Notes under the pieces: generated by a model
What the model was told of the DNA's origin: nothing
The model's database searches: none
What the model saw: the letters and a program-made list of their open reading frames with translations, nothing else
In this document: piece after piece, positions 1,807-37,261 of the stretch
How positions within the stretch are numbered: the stretch's first letter is position 1
Layout of the letters: every line of letters starts with the position of its first letter
Source: Roseimicrobium sp. ORNL1
Lineage (GTDB): Bacteria; Verrucomicrobiota; Verrucomicrobiia; Verrucomicrobiales; Verrucomicrobiaceae
Reading direction: 5' to 3'
Length of the DNA stretch: 64,000 nt
NCBI RefSeq assembly: GCF_011044495.1
Contig: NZ_CP049143.1
Location: 3,348,001 to 3,412,000, forward strand
Translations under genes and position numbers: made by a program

Positions 1807-4404
1807 ATGAATGCGATGGAAAACCAGCGTTTGTCTGGAGGGGCAACTTCGGAGTCGGAGTCGCAAAAATCGCCTGTTCCCGCCACAAGCACTGCGGTTG
1901 AACTTCCCCTGCCGGAGGAGTTGTCCCGGCTCCTTCCGGATGGTGAGTACCTCTTGGAAAGTTTCATCGGTCAGGGTGGGATGGGGGCTGTGTATCGCGG
2001 GGTGCAGATGCCCTTGAAACGGCCCGTGGCCGTGAAGATCCTCCAGCGCAGGCACGCCGGAGATGAGTTGCACTTTGAGGACAGGTTCCGTCAGGAAGCC
2101 TACGCCATGGCCACCCTGGTCCATCCGAATGTGGTGCAGGTGTATGACTGCGGCGATGCGGGTGAGGAGTTTCTCTTCATCAGCATGGAGCTGGTGGAGG
2201 GTGGAGACCTCAGCCAGGCCATGAGTCATGGTCATCACCTGGCGCTGGCCTCGGCGTTGCAGCTTCTGGTTCCCATTTGCGAGGGCCTGCAGGCCGCGCA
2301 TGAGCACGGGTTGGTGCATCGCGACATCAAGCCGGCAAACATTCTGCTGACCCCCGATTCAAAGCCGAAGGTCGCGGACTTCGGTCTCGCCAAGCGCTTC
2401 GATGCGCAGACCACCTTTGTCACACAAGGGGGGCTGGGCATGGGAACGCCGGACTATGCGGCGCCAGAGCAGTATGAGGAGTCGGCCAATCTCGATCATC
2501 GCGTGGATATCTATTCGCTCGGCGTCATGTTTTACCAGATGCTCACCGGGCATCTCCCAAGAGGCATCTTCAAGCAGGCTTCGCGTCTCGTGCGGGTGGA
2601 TCCGCGCATGGACACCGTGCTGCAGAAAGCGATGCAGCATGATCGTGCGGAGCGATATCAAAGCGTGGCGCAGATGAAGGTGGATTTGCAGCATATTCTT
2701 GCCACCTGGATGGCGCCGCCGCGTCCGCGCATGGTGGTGCAGACCGGAAAGGTCCACGTCGGCACAGGCATGTTGCCTGCGGCGACCGGTCGGGTCCAGA
2801 CAACGGCAGGGCGAGCTCCTACTGTAAACGGCAGCCGGGTACCCACGATGACGGGGAGGGTGCAGACGGTGGCGAAGCCCGTGGCTTCTCCTCCCACGAC
2901 CATCTTCCGCCATCGCCCATGCTGTCCGGCAACGTGTGCGGTAAAAAAGAGGGCTCGCGAGGCAATGCTCGCAGGCATGCTTATCCTGGTCGCGCTTGGA
3001 GGTGCGGCCACCATCGTTGCCACAAGGCATGTCAGCCCAACTGTTTCCGCTGCCGTTGAGCCTGAGGCACCCAAGCACAAGAAGAACCCCCATGCACACT
3101 CCTCGGGACCGGCATCAGCGACCAGACAGGCATTGACCTCGACAAAGAGCGGCACCGCAGCTTCGGCAGGAGCGCTTCCTCCGTTACCGGTCCGTCCTTC
3201 CCTTCAAACGCTGGATCTGCTCGCGCTCACGGATCCTTCCAAGGACGATGTGCTGCCTCGTGGCCCCGCGCAGAAGAATGGATGGGTGCGTGAAGGAGCC
3301 ACCCTTGTCTATACCGGTAGCGGAAAGCCAGGCAAGGTGGTGGCTCCCGTGGCCCTGGAATGTCTCGACTATGAATTGGAAGTTCGAGCGGAGCGCCGCG
3401 AAGGCACTGCCAGCCTCCACGTCGATCTGCCGCTCTCTGCAGGGAGGATTCTACCAGTGGTGCTGAATGATCCCTCCCGCCAGCTCCTTAATGAGAAGCA
3501 GGGACCCGGATGGCTTCGCAATGCAACCCTCGTGCATGCTCTCATCCGGGTGGTGAGCAAGGCAGGGGAAACGGAAGACGACCGGCTGGTGGTCTATGAT
3601 GTGGCGGCCAAGACAGAAATCTTCAACTGGAAGGGACGCCTCGCCTCCATGGGGACGACAGGCGAGTCTCAGGCTGAGTTCGCCGGGAAACGTCTCACAT
3701 CCCTCTTCCTGCCGCGCGATTCGTATATCATTCGAATGTGGAAACTCACCATCTTCGAGGGGAAGGCGGTGCGACTCCGTGAGTCAGGCCCTTCTCCGCA
3801 AAACAATCCGTCAGTCGCGCAGAGGGCGCCGTCGTTTTCTGCATCATCCAGCTCCAGTTCTGGTGACAGTCCTTCCGAGGCCGTGCCACTAACCAAGACG
3901 GATGCACGTCTTGCGAAACTCGAATCCGGATTTCAACAGCGCCGCGAGTCCGATGCCCAGAAGCCTTTCGCCACCGCCATGGCCAACTTGAATGCCGGAT
4001 ATGTGCGCGCGCTTGCCTCTGCAAGAACGACGGCAGAGAAGCAGGGAAACCGGACGCATCTTCCTTTGTATGATGATGAAGCCACTCGCGCGAAGGCGGG
4101 CACTCCGCCTCCGCAGTCGGACGCGCCAGACACGCCGGAGCCCCTGGCAAAACTGCGCTCCACGTACCGTACTGAAATGGCGAAGTACGAGCTTGTCCGA
4201 AACAAGACGGACGCCGCACTCCACGACATTTACATCGGTGCGCTCGATGCCTACATCGAGGAACTCGCCAGGAGCAATGACGCCCGGGCGCGTGAGGTGA
4301 AGGAAGTGCGGCAGCAGATTGCCGCAAAGAAGCCGGTGGTCCCTGCTTCACCGGGTCCGCAGGATACAGGTGCCGGTGGCCGACCACTGGCACCGGCGCG
4401 CTGA
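1807..4404 (+). CDS. PknB-like Ser/Thr protein kinase with extracytoplasmic C-terminal region
   Basis: The 865-residue protein has a complete eukaryotic-like kinase domain at about residues 48-298. The glycine loop GQGGMG is at 55-60, the ATP lysine at 77 (PVAVKIL), HRDIKPAN at 171-178, DFG at 191-193 and the APE-like AAPEQ near 218-222, so it should be active. A Thr/Gly-rich juxtamembrane stretch with a loose repeat (TGRVQT) follows, then one membrane segment near 388-406. The outer part (about 470-640) resembles the concanavalin-like/DUF1080 fold seen on many planctomycete and verrucomicrobial kinases. A charged helical region follows, probably coiled coil. The ligand and substrates cannot be deduced. 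No kinase target or phosphatase gene is adjacent. Confidence 0.9.
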   Translation: MNAMENQRLSGGATSESESQKSPVPATSTAVELPLPEELSRLLPDGEYLLESFIGQGGMGAVYRGVQMPLKRPVAVKILQRRHAGDELHFEDRFRQEAYAMATLVHPNVVQVYDCGDAGEEFLFISMELVEGGDLSQAMSHGHHLALASALQLLVPICEGLQAAHEHGLVHRDIKPANILLTPDSKPKVADFGLAKRFDAQTTFVTQGGLGMGTPDYAAPEQYEESANLDHRVDIYSLGVMFYQMLTGHLPRGIFKQASRLVRVDPRMDTVLQKAMQHDRAERYQSVAQMKVDLQHILATWMAPPRPRMVVQTGKVHVGTGMLPAATGRVQTTAGRAPTVNGSRVPTMTGRVQTVAKPVASPPTTIFRHRPCCPATCAVKKRAREAMLAGMLILVALGGAATIVATRHVSPTVSAAVEPEAPKHKKNPHAHSSGPASATRQALTSTKSGTAASAGALPPLPVRPSLQTLDLLALTDPSKDDVLPRGPAQKNGWVREGATLVYTGSGKPGKVVAPVALECLDYELEVRAERREGTASLHVDLPLSAGRILPVVLNDPSRQLLNEKQGPGWLRNATLVHALIRVVSKAGETEDDRLVVYDVAAKTEIFNWKGRLASMGTTGESQAEFAGKRLTSLFLPRDSYIIRMWKLTIFEGKAVRLRESGPSPQNNPSVAQRAPSFSASSSSSSGDSPSEAVPLTKTDARLAKLESGFQQRRESDAQKPFATAMANLNAGYVRALASARTTAEKQGNRTHLPLYDDEATRAKAGTPPPQSDAPDTPEPLAKLRSTYRTEMAKYELVRNKTDAALHDIYIGALDAYIEELARSNDARAREVKEVRQQIAAKKPVVPASPGPQDTGAGGRPLAPAR

Positions 4405-6732: not shown

Positions 6733-7671
6733 TCACTTCGCCCGGGAGGCTTTGAGCGCCTGTGATTTGGCCGTGTTGGCCTTCTCCCGCAGTCGTATGA
6801 TTTCGTCACGCAGGTTGGTAACTTGAAGACCAGCCGCAGCAGCCTTCTGCTCAGCCGCGTTTGCTTCCTGAAGAAGATTGTAGCTTGGGCGACCAGCCAC
6901 CTTGGCACTCCCGGCCTGACCCTGGAGGTAGGCGGCGCGGTTGCGCCACTGGGACCATGCTGCTTCGGCAGTCCTGAGTTTCGCAGTGGAGTCCGCAACT
7001 TCCTGTTCAAGCGAGGCCGCGGATGCGTTGAGGGCATCGAGGCTTGGGTTCGCTGTTGCAGACGGCTTGTTGGTTTTGGAAGAGCTTGACGCCTTGGTGG
7101 TGGAGGCGGAAGTGCTCAGCGGTGTGGCTGCGCCTACCGCGGGCTCTGAAGAACTCAAGAATGGCTCCATGCCGATACGGAACCGGTCTTTGAGATCCGG
7201 GGGTAGTTCCTCTACACGAAGCTTCGCGACGCCCTCGCTGTGGGCCAGCGTGATCTCCGTATCGGTCACCTTCTGGATTCTCACTTCCTTGAGGATTTGA
7301 CCATTGCGGAAGGGCACATCAGCCCACTGCATGCCCACGGACTTGGAACGGACATCACTCACTGTATCCCGGAACGCTTTCAGATATTCCTCTTTCCGTC
7401 CCTCAAGGGCGAGCACCGAGTCGGCCAGCGATTTCTTCTGGGCTTCAAGAGTTTGGTAGGCCGCCACAAGTTCATTGAGCCTTTCAGCCTCGGTAAGGCC
7501 GCCATCCCCTGAGCTGTCCGGAGCGAGCTCTTCTTCCAGGCTTTTCAGCTCGGCCTGCGCTTCAGCCAGCTCGTGCTGGGCAGTGTCTATTTTCGAGAAG
7601 TAGCCGGTGAAACTGGCAAAGCCCCCGATGAACAAAGCGACAACTAAAAGGCCCCAAATTTTCAGGTCCAT
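6733..7671 (-). CDS. Membrane-anchored coiled-coil protein (copy 1 of a duplicated module)
   Basis: The 312-residue protein has an N-terminal membrane segment (residues 5-25, IWGLLVVALFIGG). A long Glu/Ala/Lys coiled coil follows to about residue 110. A small globular motif, VRIQKVTDTEITLAHSEGVA then KLRVEELPPDLKDRF, is at roughly 128-165. A Ser/Thr/Lys linker and a second coiled coil, with the motif GRPSY, end the protein. The globular motif resembles short beta modules common in verrucomicrobial and planctomycete envelope proteins. It lies 24 bases after a lipoprotein gene on the same strand. The same two-gene arrangement occurs again at 30316-31589. The function is unknown; an envelope scaffold is my inference. 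Confidence 0.75.
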   Translation of the reverse strand: MDLKIWGLLVVALFIGGFASFTGYFSKIDTAQHELAEAQAELKSLEEELAPDSSGDGGLTEAERLNELVAAYQTLEAQKKSLADSVLALEGRKEEYLKAFRDTVSDVRSKSVGMQWADVPFRNGQILKEVRIQKVTDTEITLAHSEGVAKLRVEELPPDLKDRFRIGMEPFLSSSEPAVGAATPLSTSASTTKASSSSKTNKPSATANPSLDALNASAASLEQEVADSTAKLRTAEAAWSQWRNRAAYLQGQAGSAKVAGRPSYNLLQEANAAEQKAAAAGLQVTNLRDEIIRLREKANTAKSQALKASRAK

Positions 7672-7695: not shown

Positions 7696-8034
7696 TTAAA
7701 GATTCTTGACCCGATAAGCGGTGCCTTCTTTTTCCAAGGCCACCAAGTCGGCTTCGAGGGTAGTTTTGCGTTCTTGAAGCATGGACACGTCACTTTCGAG
7801 TGTCGCGATACCTGCCTGCACAGCTTTGGCACCTTTACGGGCGAGGGGATGCTTCTTGGGATTCTGGGCGGCTGGGCTGGATTCCTTGACTGCCTCCAGC
7901 TCTTCAATCTTTTGCCGAACTTCCTTGGTCTTGGCGGCAAGTCTTTCCTGCTCCTGACAGCTCGTCAGGCTAAGCATGGAACCCGCGCAAAACAGAAAAA
8001 TGAAGGCGCGTGTTAGGAATCTTGAATGGGCCAT
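7696..8034 (-). CDS. Small coiled-coil lipoprotein (copy 1 of a duplicated module)
   Basis: The 112-residue protein has a signal peptide with lipobox LTSC (Cys26), so it should be lipid-anchored. After SCQEQERLAAKT it is almost entirely charged and helical, predicting a coiled coil. The paralogue at 30316 shares the SCQExxRLxAxT segment right after the lipid anchor. The gene immediately precedes the coiled-coil membrane protein at 7671, and the two helices could pair with each other. An AT-rich stretch containing GATATAAC lies just upstream of the start, preceded by GGAGG 12 bases from the ATG. Confidence 0.75.
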   Translation of the reverse strand: MAHSRFLTRAFIFLFCAGSMLSLTSCQEQERLAAKTKEVRQKIEELEAVKESSPAAQNPKKHPLARKGAKAVQAGIATLESDVSMLQERKTTLEADLVALEKEGTAYRVKNL

Positions 8035-26699: not shown

Positions 26700-29600
26700 A
26701 TGCAAATACCCAATCCTGCCCGTTTGGTCCGGGCATGCGCCGCCGGTTTGCTTTCCGCCTGCAGTCTCACACCTGCGCTGCTTGCGGGTCCCCCTGTCAA
26801 AAATCCGAAGGATGTGGTGGTTGAGGCCCATCCTATGTATCTGGGCACCGTTACTGGTGGGGTGAAGACAAGTGATGACTACACGGAGGGCAATTTCTCG
26901 ATTGTGGCCCCCGTGTGGAGCACGCTGGGTGCAGACTCCACGCTGAGTGGTGATGTCATCTATCTGGAGCCCTACACCTCCTGGGGGGAGCAGGGCGAAG
27001 TGGCCGCCTCACTTGGTTTGGGATGGAGGCACCTTTTTGGCACCCAGTCCGTCTCTGCGCTGAAGAACCGTGATGTGCCGCAGCCGGGATTCTTCGACGA
27101 GGGCATCTTCGTCGGAGCGAACGTGTTCATCGACATGCTCGACACGGAGGAGGATAACCAGTTCTGGCAGCTGGGCGTGGGTCTGGAAGTCGGTACTCGC
27201 TATGTGGAAGTGCGTGGGAACTACTACATCCCGCTCTCCGACAAGCAACTCGCTGAAACCACGCGCACCGTGGAGACCATTCAGCGCTCGAGCACGAGCA
27301 CGTCGCAGTCGGTCACGCCCACGAGCGACCCGTACGCTACGGGCAGCAGCGTCGCGCAGAATGCCCTGTTCACGACGACTACTACCACAAGCATCAGCAC
27401 CACGACCATCGAGCGTCTCTTCCGTCGTTATGAAGAGGGCATGGAAGGCTGGGACGCGGAAGTCGCCTTCCTGATCCCCGGGCTGGATCGGTACTTCGAT
27501 TTGCGCGTTATCGGCGGCTACTACAAGTTCGACAATCAGCCCTTCGGTCCGCAGGAGGGCGGTACTGGCAATGTGGAAGGCTGGAAGGCTGGTGTGGAAG
27601 TCCGCCCCGTTCCAGCGGTCATTCTCACCGGAACCTGGTATGACGATGAACGTCTGACCGGCAGTGACTGGACTGTGGGCGTGCAGCTTCAGATTCCCTT
27701 CGAAGGCGGTGATCTGGGCGATGGCAAGACTTTCTGGAGCCGCATTGGTGAGTCCTTCACGCCTCGCCGTCGTCATTTGGTGGAGCGTTTGGCTGAACCG
27801 GTCCGTCGTCAGAATGCCGCCATCAAGGTGGCCAACACCGTGGATACGGATACGAGCACCAGCACCAAGGTGAAGAAGGTCACCAAGGTCACGCAGCGTC
27901 CTGGCCAGGTAGTGTTGGAAGATGACATCGTCTTCGTGAACAACGGAGATGCCGTGGGCAATGGCATTCAGGCGGGCACAGCTCAGGTGGATGGCGCCAC
28001 GGGTACGGCCGAGCGGCCCTTCAATACCATCACGGAAGGTTCGTTCCTGGCTGGCACCAACAGCAACAACAGTGGCCGCTTGTGGACGGTGTATACCCAG
28101 GGTGGCACAGGCATAGATTATGAGGAGTCCGTGCTTCTCACGGGAAGCACCCGCTTCACCAGTTCTTATGTGCCTATCGTGGGCCTTGGTGGACGGAACT
28201 TCGGCGGCGATACGGCGCGTCCTGTCCTTTATGGAGGCATGGCTGCTCTGAATATCAATACCTTCATTGTGCAGGGCTATGACTTCCGTGGTGGTATCTT
28301 GGCAGGGTTTGGTCCGAGTGTGGTGGCGTTCAATCCCACCAACCTGGTTGTGACGGACAATGTGTTCACGCCTGATTTGGGAGGGCTTCCTCCCATTGAA
28401 GAGCTCCCTGAGGAGTTGGGCGAGTTTGAAGCACTCATCCCCTTGTTGCTTTCTTCCGTCTCTGTCCTGGCGGATTCCGACGGTGGCACGCATAACATCG
28501 TGCTTCAAAACAATGAGTTCAATGGGGTGTTTGCCGCCCTCGCTGTTGCCAGTGGTTACGGCTTCGACCTGAACGATCCGTCATCCTTCTTCGATATGTG
28601 TGGATGCGGCGGTGGCTCTTCACCCATCGTGAATATCCTGGCCTCGAACAACATCATCAACAGTGCCTACATGGCAGGCATCTACATTGATGCCGTCGGC
28701 GGTTCGACCGTGAACTCCACCATTTCGAACAACCTGTTCCAGGGGGAGTTTGGCGCGGCGACTCTGATCTCCAGCTATGATGACGCCATCGTGGATGTGC
28801 AGCTCACGGGCAATGTCTTCGACGGTTACTTTAACCAGGTGATCTCCGGATTCTACGCCGAGGGCGACTCCTTCATGAACGTGAATGTTGCTGGAAACAG
28901 CGTCTCAGAGTGGTCGGAATACGGAGTGGGCTTTGGTTTTGTCACCTTCGATCATGCCACCATGACGCCGACTATCTCGGGCAACACCATCAGCGGTGAC
29001 AGCTATGAGGCCATGGTCACGCTTGACAGCCACAATTGCTCCACGCTGCTTGCTTCCATCTCCGGCAACGTTTTTGAAGGTGACGGTTGTGGCTGCGATG
29101 TGCCAAACGCTATCGCCATCACGTCGAAGCATGCTTCCACTCTGAGGGCGGACATCCTGGGTAACACCTTCCTTGGTGACTTTGATCACGCCCTGGATGC
29201 AGACAAGCGCCAAGTCTCTCGCATGACGATCGACTTCTCCAACAACGTGCTGAACGGCGAGTTCGAGCGTGATGCCATCAAAATCGCAGCACACCACTAC
29301 GATGACGAGGACGGTGAGCGCCTGAAGGCGACCATCACTGGCAACCAGTTCTACGGAGACTATGACGCGAGCGGCATCTTCCTGCTGGCTGAGCATGATG
29401 CTGTGCTGAAGGGCACTGTCACTGGAAACGTTTTCCACGGGTACTTCCAGGACAACGCCATTCAGCTCAAGAGCCAGGATGATGGACGCCTGGCTGCCAC
29501 CGTGGCAGACAACATCCTCAGTGCCGATGGTGTGGTCAATGACGCATTCCTCAAGGCACGGAGCAATGATGGCTCGCGTCTGAGGATCAAAGGATTCGAT

Positions 29601-29804
29601 CGTAACCTCGTGCTTGGCTCGGGGACAAACCCAGATTCGGTTGGCTTCTTCTTCCGGGAAGATGGCGGCAGCAAGTTGACTGTCGATGGCACGCTTGATC
29701 CGGCTGCTAGCAACTTCGTGTCCGAGTTCTTCCTCAGTCCGATGGATGTGGTAGGCAACCCGAGCGGCGATTTCTTCCTGAACGGCGCACCGGTCAGTCC
29801 GTAA
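26700..29804 (+). CDS. Inverse-autotransporter-like protein with beta-helix passenger
   Basis: The 1034-residue protein has a signal peptide (ending near LTPALLAGPP). Residues about 45-350 look like an outer-membrane barrel of the inverse autotransporter type (intimin/invasin, PF11924). Evidence includes LGLGWRHLF, IFVGANVFIDMLDTEEDNQF, then WQLGVGLEVGTRYVEVRGNY and YIPLSDKQLAE. A Thr/Ser-rich insert (TTTTTTSISTTTIERLF) interrupts a loop. From about 430 on, repeats such as SGNVFEGDGCG and GNTFLGDFDHA give a right-handed parallel beta-helix. In intimin-like proteins the passenger is C-terminal to the barrel and surface-exposed, which fits here. A few Cys-rich turns (CGCGGGSS) are unusual for an exported protein. 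Terminators flank it. Confidence 0.75.
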   Translation: MQIPNPARLVRACAAGLLSACSLTPALLAGPPVKNPKDVVVEAHPMYLGTVTGGVKTSDDYTEGNFSIVAPVWSTLGADSTLSGDVIYLEPYTSWGEQGEVAASLGLGWRHLFGTQSVSALKNRDVPQPGFFDEGIFVGANVFIDMLDTEEDNQFWQLGVGLEVGTRYVEVRGNYYIPLSDKQLAETTRTVETIQRSSTSTSQSVTPTSDPYATGSSVAQNALFTTTTTTSISTTTIERLFRRYEEGMEGWDAEVAFLIPGLDRYFDLRVIGGYYKFDNQPFGPQEGGTGNVEGWKAGVEVRPVPAVILTGTWYDDERLTGSDWTVGVQLQIPFEGGDLGDGKTFWSRIGESFTPRRRHLVERLAEPVRRQNAAIKVANTVDTDTSTSTKVKKVTKVTQRPGQVVLEDDIVFVNNGDAVGNGIQAGTAQVDGATGTAERPFNTITEGSFLAGTNSNNSGRLWTVYTQGGTGIDYEESVLLTGSTRFTSSYVPIVGLGGRNFGGDTARPVLYGGMAALNINTFIVQGYDFRGGILAGFGPSVVAFNPTNLVVTDNVFTPDLGGLPPIEELPEELGEFEALIPLLLSSVSVLADSDGGTHNIVLQNNEFNGVFAALAVASGYGFDLNDPSSFFDMCGCGGGSSPIVNILASNNIINSAYMAGIYIDAVGGSTVNSTISNNLFQGEFGAATLISSYDDAIVDVQLTGNVFDGYFNQVISGFYAEGDSFMNVNVAGNSVSEWSEYGVGFGFVTFDHATMTPTISGNTISGDSYEAMVTLDSHNCSTLLASISGNVFEGDGCGCDVPNAIAITSKHASTLRADILGNTFLGDFDHALDADKRQVSRMTIDFSNNVLNGEFERDAIKIAAHHYDDEDGERLKATITGNQFYGDYDASGIFLLAEHDAVLKGTVTGNVFHGYFQDNAIQLKSQDDGRLAATVADNILSADGVVNDAFLKARSNDGSRLRIKGFDRNLVLGSGTNPDSVGFFFREDGGSKLTVDGTLDPAASNFVSEFFLSPMDVVGNPSGDFFLNGAPVSP

Positions 29805-30315: not shown

Positions 30316-30678
30316 ATGGCAAGGCCCCGTTCCACATTCCTTTCGCTGGCGACTCTCATTGGGTTTTCTCTTGCTTCCCCAAGCTGCCAGGAACACCGCC
30401 GCCTGGAGGCGGAGACGGCTGCCGCGAAGAAGCAGGTCGGGGAACTCAGGCCCCAGGTGCAAAACAACCTGGATGAGGCCGCCCAATATTCCAGAACGCG
30501 CACGGAATTGCTGAACGCGCATGCGAACGATGACCAGGCAGCCTTCACTCCGAATGGCTCAAAGGCTCTTGAGGATGAAATGGCCGCTCTCCAGGCGGAG
30601 AAGTCACGACTGGAGAAGGATATCAAGGCAATCGATGAGGAGCACGAGCAGTATAAGAAAACAATCTCACAGGGCTAA
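30316..30678 (+). CDS. Small coiled-coil lipoprotein (copy 2 of a duplicated module)
   Basis: The 120-residue protein has a signal peptide with lipobox SPSC (Cys24), followed by QEHRRLEAETAAAKKQVGEL and further charged heptads (LEDEMAALQAEKSRLEKDIK). It is paralogous to the lipoprotein at 7696-8034, sharing SCQExxRLxAxT directly after the anchor and similar length. It ends 17 bases before the coiled-coil membrane protein gene, the same order as in copy 1. The start is possibly leaderless because a promoter-like pair lies directly upstream. Confidence 0.75.
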   Translation: MARPRSTFLSLATLIGFSLASPSCQEHRRLEAETAAAKKQVGELRPQVQNNLDEAAQYSRTRTELLNAHANDDQAAFTPNGSKALEDEMAALQAEKSRLEKDIKAIDEEHEQYKKTISQG

Positions 30679-30695
30679 CTACATCTGATCTAGTT

Positions 30696-31589
30696 ATGGA
30701 AGGGCGCATTTGGGCCATGTTGGCCGCATTTTTGTTCATTGCCTGCTTTGCGGCACTGGTGAGTTATTACATCGAGATCGATTCGAAGCGACGGGATCTG
30801 GCTGCGGCGCAAACTGATTTGAAGTTCGTGCAGCAGTCTCTCATTTCTACAAAGGCACAAACCGAGAATTCGCGGAAGAGTTATGAAGACATCGTGGCCA
30901 TTGAAAAGCTGATTGGAGAAAAGAAGGAGCTTGGAAATACCATCGCCAACCTGCGCAAGAAGCGCGCCGCGGCTGTGGAATCCTACAAGAAGAGCGTGCA
31001 GGACGTGCGGGCTTACGCCATTGGCACGACGTGGCCAGAGTTCAACCATGGAAACCAGACGCTTCGTGGCGCAAAAATTCAAAAGATCACGGACACCGAA
31101 GTCACCTTTGCTCACGATGAGGGAGTCGCGAAACTAAACAAGGATACTCTTCCTGATGCTGTGAGGGACCGTTTTCGGATCGAGCAATTCCCGATGCTTC
31201 CGGAGCCTCCGCCAACTCCCGAGGGGGTGGATGCAAATTTGCCCCCGCCGCCTTTGTCCAACGACGTGGTGCCTCCTGTGGCTGTTCCGGCAACGACCGC
31301 GGCCAACAATACGAGAGTAGGAAAACTCCAGCTTGAGATTGACGCGTGTGAGCAGAAGATAAGGACACTAACAGAGAATCGGCAGGAATGGCTGAACCGT
31401 GCCTCCAGCTTTCGCGTGCAAGCCAACCGGGCGAGCAACAGGGGCCGCCCGTCTTATTCATTCAACCAACAGGCCCTGCAGGCAGAGCAGAATGCTGATA
31501 CGATACAGGTCCAAATCGAACGGGTACACAAGGAGATTCTGGAACTGAAGAAGAAGCAACTGGAGCCTGTTTCTGCCACGGCGCAATGA
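30696..31589 (+). CDS. Membrane-anchored coiled-coil protein (copy 2 of a duplicated module)
   Basis: The 297-residue protein has an N-terminal membrane helix (IWAMLAAFLFIACFAALVSY) and a coiled coil to about residue 105. A conserved module follows (KIQKITDTEVTFAHDEGVAK then LNKDTLPDAVRDRFRI). A Pro-rich linker and a second coiled coil containing GRPSY end the protein. Copy 1 at 6733-7671 has the same plan, with IQKVTDTEITLAHSEGVAKL and DRFRI matching almost residue for residue. It shares a probable operon with the preceding lipoprotein. The function is unknown; the topology suggests the long domain is periplasmic and could meet the lipoprotein. Confidence 0.75.
   Translation: MEGRIWAMLAAFLFIACFAALVSYYIEIDSKRRDLAAAQTDLKFVQQSLISTKAQTENSRKSYEDIVAIEKLIGEKKELGNTIANLRKKRAAAVESYKKSVQDVRAYAIGTTWPEFNHGNQTLRGAKIQKITDTEVTFAHDEGVAKLNKDTLPDAVRDRFRIEQFPMLPEPPPTPEGVDANLPPPPLSNDVVPPVAVPATTAANNTRVGKLQLEIDACEQKIRTLTENRQEWLNRASSFRVQANRASNRGRPSYSFNQQALQAEQNADTIQVQIERVHKEILELKKKQLEPVSATAQ

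Positions 31590-34075: not shown

Positions 34076-37261
<3,186 letters not shown>

Follow-up and report, generated by a model that had tools for sequence, protein, structure and literature searches.

A linked lipoprotein and coiled-coil membrane protein of the order Verrucomicrobiales that probably form a two-part envelope stalk

Several described systems come close to one or the other product of the gene pairs studied here, in which a gene for a lipoprotein (lip) precedes a gene for a coiled-coil membrane protein (mem). The DegS/AlgW-type anchored HtrA proteases are similar to mem in the N-terminal transmembrane (TM) segment, the probable periplasmic position and, for some mem proteins, a trypsin-like domain; they differ in that mem has a long coil and a small barrel instead of a PDZ domain, and a lipoprotein as partner. 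Membership of the DegS/HtrA family was rejected, as the window proteins contained no Pfam peptidase and the mem proteins of loci L051 and L053 no PDZ domain at E ≤ 0.001. Proteins of family TIGR04211 are composed of a small SH3-type domain, a coil and a TM segment, elements that mem shares in the opposite order; mem B reached 17.3 bits against this family and the other three window proteins less, the cut-off being 65, and it was rejected too. The Braun lipoprotein and other lipoprotein coils are short helical lipoproteins, to which lip is similar. Unlike these, each of the 79 strong lip matches has a TM-coil-barrel protein encoded beside it, and lip appears as a paralogue of the coil of this partner in L230 and L233. 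Sm/Hfq-like and other SH3-like small barrels may be similar to a domain of mem in fold, predicted as a helix followed by a small barrel, but the barrel of the window proteins is probably exported and membrane-tethered. In their mode of action, lip and mem may bear some likeness to a scaffold or to an anchored protease. To our knowledge, the envelope biology of the phylum is little described.

The window, that is, the whole stretch of 64,000 nucleotides analysed from Roseimicrobium sp. ORNL1, contains two pairs, A (8034-6733, minus strand) and B (30316-31589, plus strand). Each encodes lip, a lipoprotein of about 115 aa, and then mem, a one-TM protein of about 300 aa, with a gap between both genes of 24 nt in pair A and 17 nt in pair B (Table 1). 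The original prediction had described two pairs of the same order and size with shared motifs; the open reading frames (ORFs) were found at those places, and SCQExxRLxAxT in lip and IQK(V/I)TDTE(I/V)T(L/F)AH, DRFRI and GRPSY in mem were read directly. The lipobox cysteine was invariant in the 23 aligned lip proteins, lip B matched the lip profile A2, of which it is a member, with an E value of 4.7e-26, and the signal peptide with its lipobox cysteine marks lip as a putative bacterial lipoprotein. None of the four window proteins scored above a cut-off of Pfam or NCBIfam, the best score being that of CENPH on lip B (24.8 bits, cut-off 27).

Table 1. Features of gene pairs A and B in window coordinates.
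Feature	Position	Strand	Basis
lip B: lipoprotein, lipobox SPSC, predicted helical, 120 aa	30316..30678	+	ORF; lip profile A2
Lipobox cysteine codon of lip B	30385..30387	+	Alignment A2, Cys in 23/23 lip proteins
mem B: single-TM protein, 297 aa	30696..31589	+	ORF and alignment
N-terminal TM segment of mem B, approximate	30708..30770	+	By eye; aligns with modelled helix of mem A
First coil of mem B, from TM segment to barrel	30771..31022	+	Alignment and length analysis
Beta domain of mem B: contains IQKITDTEVTFAH, last residues DRFRI	31023..31181	+	Alignment; modelled in mem A
C-terminal helical region of mem B including GRPSY, approximate limits	31299..31568	+	Alignment; modelled in mem A
lip A: lipoprotein, lipobox LTSC, 112 aa; modelled helices 2-52, 63-112	7696..8034	-	ORF, alignment, model
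mem A: single-TM protein, 312 aa	6733..7671	-	ORF, alignment, model
N-terminal TM segment of mem A, approximate	7597..7659	-	By eye; helix in model
Beta domain of mem A, predicted Sm/SH3-like small barrel	7174..7335	-	AlphaFold2, Foldseek, VIA-align
C-terminal helical hairpin of mem A, residues 211-311, pLDDT about 95	6739..7041	-	Model

The mem A and mem B sequences were aligned over nearly their whole length with 33% identity (E 2e-46); the similarity of lip A to lip B is weaker (29%, E 5e-6). Alignment scores were 407 for mem and 100 for lip, against maxima of 89 and 64 in 1000 shuffles; 1000 shuffles preserving heptad phase peaked only at 66 and 63, so the likeness goes beyond coiled-coil composition. 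A and B are paralogous, and the duplication that had been claimed for them holds. Single-sequence searches of the 7.96-Mb single-contig genome returned only mem A and mem B (next E > 0.1), and the mem profile gave five matches at E ≤ 1e-4, namely mem A, mem B and three weaker matches. No relative turned up in a first scan of genome contigs with mem A as sole query. In the mem tree (73 rows, midpoint root), A clustered with the copy that the second genome of its genus carries (support 100/99), and B joined four copies of the neighbouring genus g2 (support 95/87), all seven rows grouping together with support 99/96. Genes for PDH-E2 and leuA flank pair A (by Pfam) and likewise its relative in L038 (by eye), and a DUF486-like gene was found beside pair B (by Pfam) and beside three of the four g2 loci (L040-L042, not L039; by eye). 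Since A and B group separately with copies of other genomes and the flanking genes agree, the duplication looks old; the order of events is not fixed by a midpoint-rooted tree.

To follow both proteins through the family Verrucomicrobiaceae, profiles of 26 mem proteins (A1) and 23 lip proteins (A2) were run over 68 genomes. All 79 strong lip matches (E ≤ 5e-8, a cut chosen once the match list was known) were located on the same strand and directly upstream of a mem match, in 51 of the 68 genomes, with a median of 32 nt between profile ends (range 18-225). A two-component envelope module had been predicted, together with a profile search for co-occurrence and with independent occurrence of the two proteins as evidence to the contrary; strong lip matches were never found without mem, which speaks against independent occurrence and supports a two-component unit in Verrucomicrobiaceae. 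Missing from that prediction were the small barrel, its association with proteases, the variation among C-termini and the relatives that are single-chain lipoproteins, all described below. Lip matches from 7.7e-8 on were a mixture of single-chain lipoproteins, an ORF of about 380 aa of g1/g2, generic coils and more adjacent lip proteins. A weak match of this profile in the own genome (E 2.5e-7) is a 381-aa ORF (G000:C1:6809149-6809448), and similar ORFs are present in G001, G002, G012 and G018.

From the side of mem, 105 ORFs with E < 1e-8 were counted in 81 stretches (the window and 80 others). A lipoprotein-like ORF was placed upstream of 93 of them by rule, and for 89 the upstream ORF matched the lip profile; these 89 entered the length analysis. 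Seven of the 16 left out are a second mem behind another mem (L049, L043, L093, L099, L100, L106 and L103); others are fragments or lie at a contig edge (L055, twice, and L108), follow a lip whose start overlaps, though it matches the lip profile (L107), encode a secreted domain protein (L105) or have a lip at threshold (L057), and L138, L124 and L125 were also left out. Three consecutive lip-mem pairs are present in some Prosthecobacter-like genomes (L051, L053).

The mem profile matched 104 of 141 genomes of the order at E ≤ 1e-8, single-chain relatives included, and at E ≤ 0.001 the beta-domain profile A3 had matches in 54 genomes of a set of 145 from the phylum. Outside Verrucomicrobiaceae, within the same order, a lipoprotein gene was found immediately upstream in 23 of 24 TM-type loci, with L225 as the sole exception. 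These 24 are all the first-in-operon TM-type loci among the stretches read, namely nine of the Akkermansia-like g12 (L059-L064, L067, L069 and L070), L033, L035 and 13 of the 20 loci L217-L236, and they represent fewer independent cases, because nine share one genus, and L033, L218 and L219 share a second. The genus g12 is termed Akkermansia-like from its kinship. TM segments were told from signal peptides by eye (hydrophobic segment, then coil), and the lip genes of L033, L220, L221, L223 and L236, which the automatic rule missed, were also recognised by eye. For domain proteins with a signal peptide or lipobox of their own, the rule flagged an upstream lipoprotein at five loci (L073, L074, L079, L085 and L086); these seem to be either unrelated lipoproteins or ORFs in a wrong frame. 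At L224, one single-chain lipoprotein bearing the domain precedes another. Lip and mem are linked through much of the order Verrucomicrobiales and probably form one two-part envelope stalk, a checkable two-gene unit in several families of one order, seemingly including Akkermansia-like gut bacteria.

The best conserved part of mem is a beta domain of about 50 aa, which single-chain lipoproteins, papain-like peptidases and trypsin-like proteases with a TM anchor have as well. In the A3 alignment, all 34 members have G57 (segment numbering), and R18, G23 and H54 show almost no variation. Pfam searches with the 34 members returned eight families at E ≤ 0.1, each in at most two members (best E 0.0022), and the sequence search of PDB a single chain with E 0.66. 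The AlphaFold2 model of a 93-residue region of mem A (10 sequences; mean pLDDT 85, pTM 0.67) predicts a helix and then a small barrel. The best PDB matches of this model in Foldseek were Hfq chains (probability 1.00, E 0.02, TMt 0.64), and VIA-align gave Gemin6 with Z 6.5 and Hfq with Z 5.0, values below 8 that may reflect merely a common arrangement. A place of the beta domain in the Sm/SH3-like small-barrel class is a lead given by these models. SHD1 (Sla1 homology domain 1) and MscS-type barrels were also considered as likenesses; SHD1 was rejected on sequence, being absent from the eight Pfam families matched by any of the 34 members at E ≤ 0.1, and its absence among the Foldseek and VIA-align matches listed carries no weight. 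A protein found under Hfq/SH3-like terms is reported in PMC11607428 not to be an Hfq homologue, and it serves as a caution, not as a relative. The own genome encodes four more proteins with the beta domain only (L155-L158), which are apparently secreted and for which the gene maps show no evident lip partner.

Behind the barrel, the C-terminus of mem varies: it is a helical region in both window pairs, and elsewhere nothing, a PGQGW-type end, another region (L111, L118, L121 and L123) or a trypsin-like protease. Trypsin_2 was detected by Pfam on the mem proteins L051 (E 3e-12) and L053 (E 2e-11) of Prosthecobacter-like arrays, and trypsin-like domains with TNAH, a D and GNSGGP were recognised by eye in L088, where the stretch ends within the protein, and in L112. 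The latter (L112:2562-4580, 672 aa) seems by eye to have two copies of the beta domain before the trypsin-like domain. The beta domain was also located at the exported N-terminus of papain-family peptidases (L066 and L068 by Pfam; L073, L074 and L077 by eye) and, by eye, N-terminal to secreted trypsin-like proteins (L164 and L165). A domain with no Pfam match is borne on two unrelated peptidase folds, and because the barrel is repeatedly joined to proteases it may recruit or regulate envelope proteolysis or quality control, a role that we infer more weakly. The same trypsin-like arrays and papain-family fusions would suit a DegS-like envelope-stress system with a protease sensor or adaptor as core and protease-less copies as regulatory subunits or decoys; we consider this rather improbable, given that both window proteins are devoid of a protease and that no PDZ was detected at the threshold given above in the two protease-bearing mem proteins scanned.

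For the architecture of the pair, lip A and mem A were read as one fused chain through two in-frame stops and modelled with 15 rows; mean pLDDT was 80 and pTM 0.46, in a model that has no PAE and whose geometry is biased by the joining. In this model, mem A is helical at residues 3-49 and 59-111, followed by four strands (115-152), a short helix (158-164), a segment with pLDDT < 50 (about 174-204) and two helices (211-258 and 264-311). A fold search with the fused chain returned chiefly long coiled-coil chains, at E ≥ 0.01, and Hfq matches further down. Among the 89 pairs, the distance from D29 to R108 of mem was 76 in 45 and 80 in 32, rarer values being 87 (4), 73 (3), 84 (2) and, once each, 75, 77 and 79, and mature lip comprised 89-98 residues in 84. 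The lengths of lip and mem coil were not correlated across pairs (r -0.12, n = 89), and the +2 residue of lip varied (D 24, K 19, G 14, E 13 and N 9 of 89).

Lipoproteins are often sorted to the outer membrane, and the main rival reading is a tether spanning the periplasm, in which lip would sit in the outer membrane, mem in the inner one, and the coils would meet by their ends or run antiparallel and so set the spacing of the membranes. Both coils are long and their uncorrelated lengths are as expected for coils out of register; on the other hand, Asp at +2, an inner-membrane signal in E. coli, is present in 24 of the 89 lip proteins, and the lip-coil alignments of L230 and L233 given below, in register and with a shared end motif, fit packing in the same direction. 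The tether is considered unlikely.

Single-chain relatives within Verrucomicrobiales have the same layout, a lipobox, a coil, in many ending in a DFxxYKxxYK-type motif, and then the beta domain; in a second group FxxFRxxRR takes the place of this motif. Twenty single-chain loci were chosen from the mem-profile matches. The best match of a matrix built on ten such pre-barrel motifs was located at most six residues from the C-terminus in 38 of 74 nonredundant lip proteins, against a uniform expectation of 6.0 and one in reversed sequences; column-shuffled matrices averaged 16.9 with a maximum of 38 in 200, so part of this C-terminal signal is due to composition.

Lip and the coil of mem were compared with 1000 heptad-phase shuffles in 12 pairs, all outside Verrucomicrobiaceae. 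Residues 11-84 of lip aligned to residues 21-96 of the own partner's coil in L230 (z 9.5, 0/1000 shuffles), and residues 2-85 to 11-96 in L233 (z 7.7, 0/1000), the own coil surpassing all 11 foreign coils (94 vs 57 and 84 vs 66, respectively). Both alignments are in register and reach FxxYxxxY, past which lip stops three residues on and mem continues towards the barrel. The third best pair, L223 (z 2.7, 11/1000), is only suggestive, a foreign coil scoring 77 and its own 64; the remaining nine pairs had no similarity beyond z 1.8, and window pair A had none (z -0.6). In two of the 12 pairs tested, lip is on its sequence a clear paralogue of its partner's coil, and so a case of a lipoprotein paralogous to the coil of its own partner; we infer that lip derived from the mem coil rather than both from something else. 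This paralogy indirectly supports a pairing of the lip and mem coils. Mere operon neighbours, co-expressed without binding each other, would account for the dissimilar coils of pair A, but a linkage kept in differing contexts and the paralogy in two pairs make such a relation very unlikely.

The lip and mem genes are paired, the cargo of mem varies and single-chain lipoproteins share the layout, while the architecture of both proteins is that predicted from sequence and models. We favour, with about an even chance of its being right, the reading that each pair is a split two-chain envelope stalk, with lip and mem parallel in the same membrane. Mem would be held in the inner membrane by its N-terminal TM helix and extend a periplasmic helix of about 85-95 residues, beyond which the small Sm/SH3-like barrel and then the variable C-terminal cargo would follow. 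Lip would consist of the lipid anchor and a helical stretch of similar length, stopping, by the alignment, where the barrel of mem would begin; it would take the place of one helix of a formerly single-chain, lipid-anchored coil. If lip and the coil of mem run in the same direction and in register, each with its N-terminal anchor in one and the same (inner) membrane, the pair would hold barrel and cargo at a fixed height. Linkage (79/79, 89/105 and 23/24), in-register paralogy in L230 and L233, similar lengths of lip and coil, the single-chain lipoproteins, the C-terminal motif of lip and the protease links were counted for the split stalk. Against it were counted the pTM of 0.46 of the fused chain, the nine of 12 pairs and pair A without lip-coil similarity, the length correlation of -0.12, the column-shuffled matrices reaching 38, the window proteins without protease, the varied +2 residue of lip and L225 without lip.

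A wider conjecture, which we regard as quite improbable, is an undescribed heteromeric stalk of Verrucomicrobiales, half lipoprotein and half TM protein, whose Sm-like barrels, possibly assembled into rings, would serve envelope proteases as an exchangeable platform. Its lipoprotein half would have arisen from a duplicate of the partner's coil that extends only to the barrel, and a homomeric single-chain form would have given rise to a heteromer whose assembly needs lipoprotein maturation and could sense the state of lipoproteins or of the envelope. A literature search of titles and abstract beginnings returned no description of the lip-mem pair or of the beta domain.

Nine window neighbours were scanned with Pfam and assigned to a kinase, leuA, PDH-E2, WD40/PSCyt1, an inverse autotransporter, DUF486, PSD1 and two without family; none of the nine adjoins both pairs. 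No division family was found among them (two match no family), which bears on a divisome-type coiled-coil pair like FtsL/DivIC. A single TM segment with a periplasmic coil and a weak DivIC match of lip A recall such a pair, but the DivIC scores (17.8 bits for lip A, 13.8 for lip B) are under the cut-off of 28.9, one partner is a lipoprotein and a barrel domain is present, and this reading is regarded as highly improbable.

Other genes were recorded near the pairs. Just upstream of pair B, at 26700-29804, lies the gene of a protein of 1034 aa in which Pfam recognised the beta-domain of inverse autotransporters (IAT_beta, E 5e-10), and a PSCyt1/PSCyt2/PSD1 protein (DUF1549/DUF1553) is encoded at 34076-37261. 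A gene for a Ser/Thr protein kinase is located near pair A (1807-4404), a similar-looking 884-aa gene near the relative of pair A in L038, and a kinase adjoins the Prosthecobacter-like array of L051. In the Akkermansia-like L061, L067 and L069, the next gene after the pair encodes an exported, thioredoxin-like protein, recognised by eye from a GSDWCGAC motif. A ParA-type ATPase gene is divergent beside lip-mem in Prosthecobacter-like loci (L053:12148-13858 by Pfam; L036, L055, L056 and L165 by eye); in several of these a gene of no assigned kind is next, and in L165 the gene of the secreted barrel-plus-trypsin-like protein adjoins that of the ATPase.
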